A stretch of 31,423 nucleotides of DNA, from the IMG/VR virus record IMGVR_UViG_3300024354_000051, positions 1-31,423 of that record; one strand, written 5' to 3'. Shown here one piece after another: positions 17,093 through 31,423 of the stretch. Positions within the stretch are counted from its first letter, which is position 1; each line of letters begins with the position of its first letter. This DNA comes from a virus. The notes under the pieces were generated by a model that did not search any database, was not told where the DNA came from, and worked only from the letters and a program-made list of their open reading frames with translations. The position numbers and the translations under genes were made by a program.

Positions 17093-18052
17093 ATGATTGT
17101 AAGATATGTGTCGGCACAACCAGCGACAAAATATTATGCATGGCAAGTCGAGGTCATGTTAAACAATTTTGTTAGCGTTGGGATCAACTTAAACTATGTT
17201 GACATTGTTTGTTGGAAACAAGATGGCATTGTTCCACCAGAATGGTCAAAACTTGCTCAAGGTTATGCAGCAAGATTTTTCTTTTACGATGACAAACGAA
17301 TAACCAAATATTATGTTTCATCTATTAGACCAAACATCCTAAAACAACATTTCAAGGAACATCCGTATTTGGCACAAGATGCCATATTTTACCATGATTG
17401 CGACATTGTATTTACTAAGCAATTGATATTTGGTCCGTTCTTATACGACAACAAATGGTATGGTTCCGATACAAGATTTTATATTAGCCATGATTACATT
17501 TTAAGCAAGGGAAAGGATGTTTTGGATAAAATGTGTAAGATAGTAGGCATCAAGAAAAGCGTTGTAAAAAAGAACGAATTGAACTGCATCGGTGCTCAAT
17601 ATCTTATGAAAAACATCGATTGGGTATTTTGGGAGAATGTGGAACGAGATTCCGAGATGTTATTTAAAGAAATAACAGACTTGAACAATGAAAAATTAAT
17701 AATTGATAGAAGAACAATGCCACCTGGACAAGCGAGACAATCATATCATCCATTGCAAATTTGGTGTGCTGATATGTGGGCGGTTTTATGGAACGGATGG
17801 AAAATGGGAGTTGAAACAGTTGTACATAAGGACTTTGAGTTTGCATGGGCTACATCTCATGTGAGAGAATGGGAGAAATGCTACATATACCATAACGCTG
17901 GGGCAACTGGATTAATAAAGGGAATGTTCTTTAAATCGGAATACATGGAGGAATATCCCTACAACAAAGAGTTGGATTTGGACAAAGAGTTTGCCAGTTA
18001 CAATTATTGGGAATTAATTCAAGACACTGCAAAAAAATCAGTTTTACTATAA
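17093..18052 (+). CDS. Putative glycosyltransferase, GT-A type (DCD motif)
   Basis: 319 residues. After an N-terminal beta/alpha segment, 'DAIFYHDCDIVFTK' gives a D-x-D motif (D102-C103-D104) with a hydrophobic strand before it, as in GT-A enzymes that bind a nucleotide sugar through a metal ion. Further conserved-looking segments are 'NCIGAQYLMKNIDWVFWENVERDSEMLF', 'HPLQIWCADMWAVLWNGWKMG' and 'CYIYHNAGATG'. The overall order resembles glycosyltransferases of the peptidyl-Ser/Hyp type, but this is a weak impression. It follows the mucin-like gene by nine bases, its start is preceded by the ACGTATG motif, and it overlaps the next glycosyltransferase by one base. Confidence 0.65.
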   Translation: MIVRYVSAQPATKYYAWQVEVMLNNFVSVGINLNYVDIVCWKQDGIVPPEWSKLAQGYAARFFFYDDKRITKYYVSSIRPNILKQHFKEHPYLAQDAIFYHDCDIVFTKQLIFGPFLYDNKWYGSDTRFYISHDYILSKGKDVLDKMCKIVGIKKSVVKKNELNCIGAQYLMKNIDWVFWENVERDSEMLFKEITDLNNEKLIIDRRTMPPGQARQSYHPLQIWCADMWAVLWNGWKMGVETVVHKDFEFAWATSHVREWEKCYIYHNAGATGLIKGMFFKSEYMEEYPYNKELDLDKEFASYNYWELIQDTAKKSVLL

Positions 18053-18696
18053 TGGAAAAAATAATACATCAAATTTGGGTTGGTCCTTACGAAATGCCAG
18101 ATCGTGAAAGATTATTCGTTCAAATGGTAAAGGACAAAAATAAAACCTACGAGCACAAGTTATGGACAAATGACAACATCCCAGAGTTGCCAGATAACTT
18201 AAAAGAGTTATACCAAAAGTTTGAATTAGCCGAAGATTATGCCCATCAAGCCGACATTTTAAGGATATTCCTTATTGCCAAATATGGAGGCATTTACATG
18301 GATGTTGACTTCCATTGTGTTGGTTCTATCGACAATACTGATTTAAGCCAATCTAATGGCTTTTTTTGCTATCATGGAGGAAATGATTACACAATGCCCA
18401 ACGGAGTGTTTGGCTTGTCTAAATCGGCTGAAATAGCCCAATTTTTACTTGATTCGGTGCAACCAGATAACGGATGGTATGGTCCATCTTGGTTAGGGGA
18501 TAAAGTGAAAGAGTTTTTGGGCTTTAATAGGGAGACTGATCATGAGTTGGTAAAACAAGGACTTGACAATATTGGCATCAAATACATTATGTTCCCTTAT
18601 TGGGAAACTAAGTTTTTTAGACATCATGCTTTGTACTCATGGAGTCCAGAGAATAAGGCAAATTTTAAGAACGGAAACATTAACTATTTATGGTAA
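18052..18696 (+). CDS. Glycosyltransferase, GT32-like (DXD-containing)
   Basis: 214 residues. 'IIHQIWVGPYEMPDRE' at the start and 'ADILRIFLIAKYGGIYMDVDFHC' (D84-V85-D86) are the two signatures of GT32-type sugar-transferase domains (the Och1/capsular sugar transferase group). 'GFFCYHGGNDYTMPNGVFG' and 'HHALYSWSP' are also in keeping. The enzyme moves a hexose from a nucleotide sugar to an acceptor. The ATG overlaps the preceding stop (TAATG), and the end overlaps the next gene by seven bases, so the three genes are coupled. The ATG at 18052 is chosen over 18007 because the family begins at this point. Confidence 0.87.
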   Translation: MEKIIHQIWVGPYEMPDRERLFVQMVKDKNKTYEHKLWTNDNIPELPDNLKELYQKFELAEDYAHQADILRIFLIAKYGGIYMDVDFHCVGSIDNTDLSQSNGFFCYHGGNDYTMPNGVFGLSKSAEIAQFLLDSVQPDNGWYGPSWLGDKVKEFLGFNRETDHELVKQGLDNIGIKYIMFPYWETKFFRHHALYSWSPENKANFKNGNINYLW

Positions 18697-19478
18697 GTTT
18701 TGTTTGCACTACATATAGGAGGTTTTATTGTGTTAGGAGGATTTTGGCTCAATTTTATGCTCAAACATACCCTCACAAGGAACTTATCATATTCAATACC
18801 GACATGGAGTTTCCTTATGAAATGTTGGTAAATGTCTCCAATGTGATTGTAGTAAATAATGACAAAGACTACCAAACTGGATTACCTTATACAAACAGAG
18901 GGCAAATTTGCCGAGATGCAGTCACTCATGCAAATGGAGACTATTTTATGTTAGCCGATGATGATGACATATACTTGCCTTATCACATGGAACAAGCGGT
19001 CAATGGAATTAAATCAAATGGGATGGATGCCTGGAAACCAGAAAAAAGCCTATTTGCTACGAGAGAGGAAATAAAACCAGTACAAAATACACTTGAGGCA
19101 AGTGTAATTGTTAAAATGAACCGAATTAGGGAAATAGGATTTAGATCCGATATAACTGGTTATGAGGGATTAAGTTGGTACACTCAATTAAGAGATGAGG
19201 GACAATTGGATGAAAACAACAAAAAGTATGTTCCATCGTATTGTTTCAATTGGTCCGATCCATCGGAATTGGCTGGGCATAAGCAAAGCGGAGACATAGA
19301 CAACCCAAATAACTTTGACAATCACAAAGAGCAAAGCCGAGACCACGCAAAAGAAAAATTGACTCCAATTAGCAAAGATGAATTGAACAAAGAATATATT
19401 AAGTATTATGATTGTATTGTCAAATACAAATCCCACTTTGACTCTAAAAGTTATGAAAGATACATTTTAACTGAGTAG
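18690..19478 (+). CDS. Glycosyltransferase family 2-like
   Basis: 262 residues. The N-terminus 'MVSFVCTTYRRFYCVRRILAQFYAQTYPHKELIIFNTD' is the GT2 opening strand-helix-strand, and 'GDYFMLADDDDIYLPYHM' supplies the metal/nucleotide-sugar acidic motif (D90-D93). The rest is less conserved; 'DAWKPEKSLFATREE' and 'TQLRDEGQLDE' may contribute to acceptor binding. Third gene in a row after the mucin-like tail protein. A target on the virion (Thr/Ser linkers) is an inference; modification of the host surface is an alternative. Confidence 0.83.
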   Translation: MVSFVCTTYRRFYCVRRILAQFYAQTYPHKELIIFNTDMEFPYEMLVNVSNVIVVNNDKDYQTGLPYTNRGQICRDAVTHANGDYFMLADDDDIYLPYHMEQAVNGIKSNGMDAWKPEKSLFATREEIKPVQNTLEASVIVKMNRIREIGFRSDITGYEGLSWYTQLRDEGQLDENNKKYVPSYCFNWSDPSELAGHKQSGDIDNPNNFDNHKEQSRDHAKEKLTPISKDELNKEYIKYYDCIVKYKSHFDSKSYERYILTE

Positions 19479-28101: not shown

Positions 28102-28352
28102 TGACACCAAAAGAAAAAGCACAAGAATTAATAGATAAAATGAAAAGACCATTAAATGATGATTATTTTGTAGATTATAATCCTTATTATAAAGAATGTG
28201 CATTAATTGCAGTAGATGAAATAATAAAATCAAATCCATTAGAACCAAATGATACACCAGAATGGCTTCAACCAGAAGATTGGTTTTCAGATTCAAATAT
28301 ATCTGCTGAAAAATATTGGTTGGAAGTTAAAAAAGAGATAACAAATCTATGA
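28101..28352 (+). CDS. Small hypothetical protein common in Bacteroidota phages (83 aa)
   Basis: Begins 'MTPKEKAQELIDKM' and has 'KECALIAVDEIIKSNP', a combination I recognise from many Bacteroidota phage genes without known function. The C-terminal half is Trp-rich and acidic (EWLQPEDWFSDS). Its codons are distinctly more AT-rich (att, aat, gat, tta) than those of neighbouring genes, hinting at separate acquisition. Coupled on both sides (TAATG and ATGA). Confidence 0.68.
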   Translation: MTPKEKAQELIDKMKRPLNDDYFVDYNPYYKECALIAVDEIIKSNPLEPNDTPEWLQPEDWFSDSNISAEKYWLEVKKEITNL

Positions 28353-28525
28353 ATTACCCATCTAAAGAAACCTATTTAATACAGTTAGAAAATGAAACAT
28401 TACGAGAAAGAGTTAAAGCCCTCAAAGAAAGAATTAAAGAGTTGGAACTATTGGTCAATGCCCAATCTAAAGCCAAGACCGAAAACGCACCTGGAACAAA
28501 TCCAGGAGGCACAAAGAATCATTGA
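28349..28525 (+). CDS. Small coiled-coil protein (58 aa) upstream of and overlapping the DnaA-like gene
   Basis: The ATG overlaps the preceding TGA (ATGA). Residues ~8-40 form a leucine-zipper-like helix (YLIQLENETLRERVKALK followed by ERIKELELLVNAQ), then a Gly/Pro/Asn-rich tail ending in GGTKNH. It overlaps the DnaA-like gene in another frame by 68 bases. A dimerising partner of that protein is conceivable but not shown. Confidence 0.55.
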   Translation: MNYPSKETYLIQLENETLRERVKALKERIKELELLVNAQSKAKTENAPGTNPGGTKNH

Positions 28526-28784
28526 GGTGGTTTGTCACTATTACGAATATTCCTATAAAGACCTTGTTGGTAAATATAGGGCTCCAGCTTTGGTAATAGC
28601 GAGGCACATTGCCATTCAATTTATCAAAAGCAAGACTGATTTAAGCCTAAAAGAGATTGGCAAATTGTTTGACCGAGATCATACTACCATTATTCATGCC
28701 CTTAGGAATATAGAAGCCAAAAGGACTCATCCTTATGATGAAAGCGTAAAAACCGACCTTTTTAACATTAATTTAATACTTTAA
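28458..28784 (+). CDS. Stand-alone DnaA domain IV-like DNA-binding protein
   Basis: 108 residues from the ATG at 28458. The sequence is the C-terminal DNA-binding domain of the bacterial initiator DnaA: 'IIEVVCHYYEYSYKDLVGKYRAP' (start of domain IV), 'LVIARHIAIQFIKSKTDLSLKEIGKLF' and the signature 'FDRDHTTIIHALRNIE', in which the D-H-T-T loop contacts the DnaA box. The AAA+ ATPase domain is absent. An ATG at 28392 would add 22 residues in a stretch overlapping the coiled-coil gene. Two TTATTCACA boxes lie in the 59 bases directly downstream, between this gene and the annealase gene, suggesting a regulator or an origin-binding role. Confidence 0.88.
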   Translation: MPNLKPRPKTHLEQIQEAQRIIEVVCHYYEYSYKDLVGKYRAPALVIARHIAIQFIKSKTDLSLKEIGKLFDRDHTTIIHALRNIEAKRTHPYDESVKTDLFNINLIL

Positions 28785-28789
28785 AGAGG

Positions 28790-28798
28790 TTATTCACA
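28790..28798 (+). promoter_or_regulatory. DnaA box TTATTCACA (first)
   Basis: Fits the DnaA box consensus TTWTNCACA exactly. It starts five bases after the stop of the DnaA-like gene, upstream of the -7 element at 28809. A 10-base version (TTATTCACAA) is repeated at 28821. Confidence 0.65.
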
Positions 28799-28808
28799 AT
28801 AGAATTAG

Positions 28809-28816
28809 TATATTTG
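28809..28816 (+). promoter_or_regulatory. Promoter element TATATTTG before the annealase gene
   Basis: Matches TAnnTTTG and lies between the two DnaA boxes, 27 bases before the annealase ATG. The first box covers the expected spacer/-33 area and the second the expected transcription start, so a bound DnaA-type protein should affect this promoter. Confidence 0.5.
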
Positions 28817-28820
28817 ATTA

Positions 28821-28829
28821 TTATTCACA
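28821..28829 (+). promoter_or_regulatory. DnaA box TTATTCACA (second)
   Basis: Identical to and in the same orientation as the box at 28790, 31 bases (about three helical turns) downstream. It would overlap or closely follow the transcription start of the annealase promoter. Confidence 0.65.
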
Positions 28830-28843
28830 AGTAAAACAAACGT

Positions 28844-29554
28844 ATGGAACTGCAAAAAACACTGGTTTATACTAAAGACCAGGTCGAGTTAATCAAGACT
28901 CAAATCGCACCAGATGCGACAATGGATGAACTAAAACTATTCCTTTACCAAGCACAACGCACTGGATTAGATGCTTTGTCAAGGCAGATTTATTGCATCC
29001 ACCGAAACACTAAATTGCCCAACGGATCATATGGCAAAAAGATGACCATTCAAACATCAATTGATGGTTTCCGAGTAATTGCCGAAAGGTCTGGAACTTA
29101 TGCTGGACAATCCGAGCCAATTTTTACAACCGATGCCAATGGAAACTTGGAGTCTTGTAAAATATCGGTATTTAGATTTAAAGGAGATATAAGATACGAG
29201 GCAGCCGTTGGAGTGGCTTACTGGTCCGAATATGTACAAACGGATAAAAGTGGCAACCCAATGGGTTTATGGGGTTCTAAGCCGAGAATTATGTTGGCTA
29301 AGGTATGTGAGTCAATTGCACTTAGAAAGGCATTTCCTCAAGACTTGAGTGGTCTTTACACTGGCGATGAATTGCCAGAGGAAATTGTTGAGAAATCCCC
29401 TTACATCAAACGACACGAAACATTTGAAGACTTAGAATTGGCGATTGATTTGTGTCTAAACTTAAATGAGTTAGTAAAGTTATATGAACTCAACTTACAC
29501 CAAGAAAGCGACAAAATGAAATTATTGTTTACTACTAAAAAAGAGACTTTATGA
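28844..29554 (+). CDS. bet: Bet/RecT-family single-strand annealing protein
   Basis: 236 residues. The lambda Bet pattern is clear: 'IKTQIAPDATMDELKLFLYQAQRTGLDALSRQIYCIHR' (residues ~17-53), 'MTIQTSIDGFRVIAERSGTYAGQSEP' and 'WGSKPRIMLAKVCESIALRKAFPQDLSGLYTGDE'. These proteins anneal complementary strands in phage recombination. No exonuclease gene is directly visible nearby, though lambda-type systems pair the two. The ATG is preceded by the ACGT leader motif. The end overlaps the next gene by four bases. Confidence 0.93.
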   Translation: MELQKTLVYTKDQVELIKTQIAPDATMDELKLFLYQAQRTGLDALSRQIYCIHRNTKLPNGSYGKKMTIQTSIDGFRVIAERSGTYAGQSEPIFTTDANGNLESCKISVFRFKGDIRYEAAVGVAYWSEYVQTDKSGNPMGLWGSKPRIMLAKVCESIALRKAFPQDLSGLYTGDELPEEIVEKSPYIKRHETFEDLELAIDLCLNLNELVKLYELNLHQESDKMKLLFTTKKETL

Positions 29555-30869: not shown

Positions 30870-31423
30870 ATGAAGAAAAATGATTTCTACTTTAGCCATG
30901 ATTACAATTCGGCTAATGATACTAAAATCCTATTTCTTAGGCATCAATTAGGGATGGAGGGATATGGGATTTATTGGTTTCTTATTGAACAATTAGCCAT
31001 TGCTGGAGGTAAATTACCACTTGATCTTATTCCAATTTTGGCAATGCAGATGCAATCAACCGATGTTAAGGTAAAGGGTGTTGTTTTAAACTTTGATCTA
31101 TTTAAAATTGAACATGAGGAGTTTTATTCGGATCGTTTACAAAAGCATCTTGAACTAAGAACAAAGTTGTCCGATAGTGGCAAAAATGGTGCTGCTAATA
31201 GGTGGGGTAATAGGGGGGCTAATGGGGTGGCTATTGGGGAGGTTAATGCAAAGGAAAGGAAAGGAAAGGAAAGTAAAGGAAAGGAAAACAAAGTAAAGGT
31301 TAGTAGGCAAACCCTATTTAGTGAGACCGAGTTTAATGATCTTGATAAATTCAAGGAAGCGTTTATAGGTACTCAATATGAAAATGCAAACTTTGAATAT
31401 TATCACGAAGTCATAAAGAACTG
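30870..31423 (+). CDS. Replication protein with DUF4373 (Lin1244/Lin1753-type) N-terminal domain, 3' truncated
   Basis: The N-terminus 'MKKNDFYFSHDYNSANDTKI', then 'LFLRHQLGMEGYGIYWFLIEQLAIAGGKLPL', matches the DUF4373-type winged-helix domain found in phage DnaD-like replication proteins (residues ~4-60). 'FYSDRLQKHLELRTKLSDSGKNGAANRWG' ends the domain. A low-complexity linker rich in Lys, Glu, Gly follows (KERKGKESKGKENKVKV). The gene runs off the window without a stop. It probably initiates phage DNA replication. The start codon lies four bases after the T tract of the leader hairpin. Confidence 0.75.
   Translation, partial: MKKNDFYFSHDYNSANDTKILFLRHQLGMEGYGIYWFLIEQLAIAGGKLPLDLIPILAMQMQSTDVKVKGVVLNFDLFKIEHEEFYSDRLQKHLELRTKLSDSGKNGAANRWGNRGANGVAIGEVNAKERKGKESKGKENKVKVSRQTLFSETEFNDLDKFKEAFIGTQYENANFEYYHEVIKN
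31204..31239 (+). other. Four G-runs, candidate G-quadruplex
   Basis: Runs of four, six, four and four G (31204-31207, 31213-31218, 31224-31227, 31236-31239) are spaced by five, five and eight bases in an otherwise AT-rich genome. The sequence fits a relaxed quadruplex pattern on the coding strand. It encodes the Gly-rich linker of the replication protein. Confidence 0.5.
31251..31300 (+). repeat. AAGGA pentanucleotide tandem repeat (about ten units)
   Basis: Ten five-base units, six of them exactly AAGGA and the first four perfect in tandem, the others one- or two-base variants. It lies within the coding sequence, so gain or loss of one unit would shift the frame. Purine-only strand bias continues from the G-runs just upstream. 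Confidence 0.85.

Follow-up and report, generated by a model that had tools for sequence, protein, structure and literature searches.

A phage gene that encodes the box-binding domain of bacterial DnaA alone is followed by a DnaA box, and both gene and box are conserved in distant relatives of the phage. The box lies in the predicted promoter of an operon that begins with a single-strand annealase gene. The chances appear about evenly balanced that the domain IV protein (DnaA-C) would bind this box and control, probably repress, the annealase operon; the binding, the promoter and the repression are all predicted from sequence. A more tentative proposal is that the gene, a single DnaA-box operator and the promoter may travel as a unit, kept while the annealase is swapped between unrelated families, and that this unit would tie phage recombination to the DnaA box code of the host.

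The analysed DNA (the window) is itself a virus record of 31,423 bases. Its terminase has the closest isolate match in Flavobacterium phage 11b (53%), followed by other Bacteroidota phages; judging from these matches and from a TAnnTTTG promoter element, the virus is probably a phage of Bacteroidota. Two long same-strand ORFs, 13–609 and 21–683, overlap in different frames and match two different PHROG DNA methyltransferase families, phrog_1008 and phrog_363; the relative L145 (7967–8998 and 8112–8933) likewise has the second frame open, with a match to phrog_1008. Three consecutive genes at 17093–19478 lie between structural-type genes, and two of them contain glycosyltransferase domains (Gly_transf_sug and Glycos_transf_2). 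The features of the DnaA-C region are collected in Table 1.

Table 1. Features of the DnaA-C and annealase region of the window.
Feature	Position	Strand	Remarks
Small coiled-coil-like ORF	28349..28525	+	Overlaps the beginning of the DnaA-C gene; homologues in relatives
Stand-alone DnaA domain IV (DnaA-C) gene	28392..28784	+	Bac_DnaA_C match; 130 aa from ATG 28392, 108 aa from ATG 28458
Box 1, TTATTCACA	28790..28798	+	DnaA box conserved in relatives; putative operator at −31 to −23 relative to the predicted start
Predicted −7 element of the annealase promoter, TATATTTG	28809..28816	+	Bacteroidota TAnnTTTG promoter rule; lies between the boxes
Box 2, TTATTCACA	28821..28829	+	Predicted position +1 to +9; kept intact by the window and L001 alone
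Annealase gene (RecT/Bet family)	28844..29554	+	Pfam RecT 4.9e-26, TIGR01913 1.3e-25, phrog_2780 2e-43

The Pfam domain Bac_DnaA_C (PF08299) covers residues 41–107 of the 130-aa protein (E = 3.7e-21; 75.4 bits against a gathering cut-off of 31.5), and the Pfam search found no AAA+ domain in it. The full-length DnaA model TIGR00362 gives 79.1 bits, below its cut-off of 343.9, and is matched only at positions 347–433, approximately the last 90 of the model; the ATPase part is therefore absent, and the protein is not a full-length DnaA with AAA+ domain III. The top solved structure for the family profile is domain IV of E. coli DnaA (1J1V, 5e-17). As judged by these matches, the protein is the DnaA box-binding domain alone, as the earlier note had described it. 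The start assigned there, 28458, is an in-frame ATG, but the gene may begin at 28392 instead, because the relatives begin M-N-Y-W-S just upstream of 28458. Residues corresponding to E. coli R399, R432, H434 and H439, which are among the base-contact positions of E. coli DnaA (PMC5043019), are invariant in 13 of 13 members according to an alignment with hand-counted numbering; the contact positions D433, T435 and T436 vary in some members. The family also shares a conserved N-terminal NYWS[MIV]P-like motif. Homologues of the small overlapping ORF (MSYIDN.../MTYIDN...) are present in the same arrangement in L145, L147, L149, L156 and L262.

Both boxes fit the host-type consensus TTATNCACA and are the only copies of TTATTCACA, as well as the only matches to TTATNCACA, in the whole record. 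As claimed previously, they are identical, lie in the same orientation on either side of TATATTTG and are spaced 31 bases start to start, or three helical turns. None of 20,000 dinucleotide shuffles of the 59-nt gap between the DnaA-C and annealase genes contained two or more such sites, and 1.3% contained at least one; two copies anywhere in the window are not rare per se (15 of 100 shuffles). A box pair with 31-bp spacing was rejected as a general signal, the profile having found a DnaA-C gene at none of at least 120 IMG/VR loci with this pattern.

Profile scans of IMG/VR added roughly 40 loci from this phage family, with approximately 40–45% identity to the window protein; at the loci inspected, the small coiled-coil ORF again overlaps the start of the gene, and the neighbouring genes match as well. 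The 95%-identical relative L001 retains both boxes in the same places. In L017 (identical to L263), which has 57% identity in DnaA-C and 84% in RecT, box 1 and TATATTTG are exact and box 2 is changed to GAAATCACA. Box 2 is likewise degraded in every relative with an ERF-type annealase, L225, for example, having TTATTTACC at the aligned place. Box 1 itself, TTATTCACA, is found 7–8 nt past the DnaA-C stop codon in L225–L249 and directly after the TGA stop in L262. The subgroup L251–L261 has TTATTAACA at the aligned site, or TTATTGACA in L254, with C changed to A or G at position 6; here, the one-base-variant box contains the TAA or TGA that ends the DnaA-C gene, so that box remnant and stop codon use the same bases. 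The earlier note had regarded relatives with the gene kept and the boxes gone as evidence against its proposal, and this subgroup, with one base changed, is a partial exception of that kind. It indicates that the consensus box is not required everywhere, which counts against the proposed operator role.

Across the 18 distinct downstream regions of the family, an exact box conforming to TTATNCACA occurs at the conserved place, within 80 nt, in nine, and the other nine retain 8/9 of its bases. The fifth base is T in all members, which is tighter than TTATNCACA. The position of box 1 is also constant, 0–8 nt past the stop codon and 9–10 nt ahead of TAnnTTT[G/A] or a near match. In the eight sequences with an exact box (the window, L001, L263, L262, L225, L231, L243 and L249), all 9 of the 9 box columns are invariant, against 4 of the 47 flanking columns, and TTATTCACA is the sole invariant block; the hypergeometric probability of about 1e-7 is inflated, as the sequences were aligned with the box as anchor. 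The lineages were counted by protein divergence because the protein tree has weak support at its deep branches. This gives three (the RecT type, L262 and L225/L249), and the ERF relatives form one close group, so that independent lineages are few. Thus, of the pair described in the earlier note, box 1 is old and exact in three deep lineages, whereas box 2 is a local feature of the window and L001.

The box was sought elsewhere as a control. Other stand-alone DnaA-C genes of phages, with 50 distinct downstream regions, have no copy within 80 nt, and the box was also absent upstream of recT in five more distant RecT relatives without a DnaA-C gene (L018–L022). Of two genome-contig scans, one returned nothing and the other returned chromosomal DnaA and unrelated stand-alone domains, the latter in short genes with no adjoining box. 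The fecal ‘Bacteriophage sp.’ matches that were retrieved proved to be full-length bacterial DnaA and were rejected.

The annealase is the first gene past the predicted promoter, and the regulator–box unit is retained across three types of annealase core. The gene behind the box is RecT in the window, L001 and L263, and ERF in the L225–L261 group (PF04404, 1.9e-25 in the L149 copy). In L262, it is of a third type with no Pfam match (phrog_19042, 1.6e-6), possibly an annealase not described before. The RecT, ERF and phrog_19042 proteins have in common a C-terminal tail, some 52 residues long and approximately 50% identical (window 29370–29551; L262 5393–6016; L149 6387–6941); the operon partner has therefore been swapped by its core and not by its tail.

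The predicted promoter follows the Bacteroidota pattern. The −7 element of Flavobacterium occupies −12 to −5 (PMC6847099; PMC9723704), so transcription is predicted to start at about 28821, which gives the box positions listed in Table 1. TATATTTG is kept in L001 and L263. Most ERF relatives have a TAnnTTTA-like element in its place, 9–10 nt after the box, and TTTG or TTGA immediately upstream of the box, where a −33 element is expected. In the window, no TTTG was found at −33, where the sequence is AGAGG. Box 1 would thus sit inside the predicted promoter, with the −33 element on one side and the −7 element on the other.

With this geometry, the phage domain IV would act alone as a sequence-specific transcription regulator. 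Bound to box 1 between the two promoter elements, DnaA-C would most likely compete with RNA polymerase, and this competition would hold back or time expression of the annealase, the SSB-like gene and the genes that follow. In the window and L001, box 2 at the start site would strengthen repression. Repression appears to be the simplest consequence of the nested position of box 1, and activation is conceivable, mainly since the window promoter is without a −33 TTTG. That host-type sites control the annealase promoter, one of the roles suggested in the earlier note, remains the best reading, given the conservation of the box in distant relatives; the box pair as its operating unit does not stand.

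Activation would use the same operator and protein, bound DnaA-C beside the −7 element helping the polymerase where the −33 element is poor; we regard it as unlikely, though the foremost of the alternatives. A site overlapping the polymerase footprint near −27 usually blocks transcription, and box 1 is centred near that position. Most ERF relatives, moreover, do have TTTG or TTGA just before the box. The −33 motif is required for full promoter activity (PMC2483708), which fits a helper role at the AGAGG of the window, but this element is weak in most promoters (PMC6847099). The conserved N-terminal motif could contact a partner in such a role.

Somewhat less probable is that the box serves host DnaA: the phage would read the replication state of the host, and DnaA-C would keep host DnaA from this box or from host sites, by blocking or displacing it. 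The box does fit the host-type consensus, and an isolated DnaA domain IV is able to occupy boxes and yet not initiate replication. The box is present only where a phage DnaA-C gene adjoins and is tighter than the host consensus at its fifth base; these observations argue for the phage protein, while both are compatible with host DnaA too. Host DnaA may share the box 1 site with the regulator proposed here.

A phage replication origin at the boxes, with DnaA-C as initiator or initiation helper, was also suggested earlier and is improbable. PHROG labels such proteins replication initiators, and the gap resembles many bacterial origins in being A+T-rich and adjacent to the gene, but neither the box cluster nor the skew turn of a DnaA-type origin was found in the window: two boxes are present, a single one is conserved and GC skew does not turn near 28.8 kb. 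DnaA-C has no AAA+ or helicase-loading part. A better candidate is the replication-type Lin1244_N gene at 30871–31423, which runs off the record end and contains ten internal AAAGG repeats (31250–31299), a candidate phage origin; an initiator gene with internal repeats is the commoner initiator-plus-origin layout of phages. An origin at 28.8 kb is accordingly less likely. Least probable of all is a box that is a chance match or a functionless leftover: the relatives share ancestry and the ERF types have a conserved right-hand box flank as well, but the RecT, L262 and ERF lineages have all nine box bases in common and essentially dissimilar flanks, and the 50 other stand-alone loci have no such box.

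Covariation of contact residues with box changes was considered and set aside. It is suggestive, since D433N accompanies C6G in L254 and mostly T435S accompanies C6A in L251–L261, but the D433 and T435/T436 positions also vary in L263 and L262, where the box is unchanged.

DnaA domain IV alone is frequent in phage genomes, and databases label it a replication initiator without test. The conserved site beside the gene points to another role, that of a promoter regulator, which, if true, would explain at least part of this widespread orphan domain. The natural protein–box pairs (consensus, C6A and C6G) should be useful for understanding how DnaA reads DNA. Stand-alone phage DnaA-C proteins have already been annotated; the conserved gene–operator–promoter unit appears to be new, and searches of an open-access literature collection found no account of a phage-encoded DnaA domain acting as a regulator.

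In Flavobacterium phage 11b, a small coiled-coil ORF, the annealase gene (erf) and SSB are arranged as in the window, but no DnaA-C gene was found and TTATNCACA is absent from the 36 kb of this phage. The stand-alone Bac_DnaA_C proteins of Pelagibacter phages (Greip, HTVC100P and Skadi), Polaribacter phage P12002L and Rhizobium phage RHph_N28_2 also comprise domain IV without AAA+, and several of them are encoded near replication or recombination genes, as here; they differ in their frames of 160–199 aa, in their identity of about 33–40% and in having no adjoining TTATNCACA in those read. Bacterial DnaA (TIGR00362; domain IV 1J1V) shares with the phage protein the domain IV sequence, the basic-loop arginine, the R-D-H-T-T helix and the box TTATNCACA, whereas the phage protein, of 108–130 aa, is without domains I–III or an ATPase and its box lies in a predicted phage promoter. 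DnaA regulates transcription at E. coli dnaA, mioC and others. The DnaA box overlapping a promoter is common to those sites and the present one; what distinguishes the phage arrangement is a dedicated protein, with no ATP control and a single conserved box.
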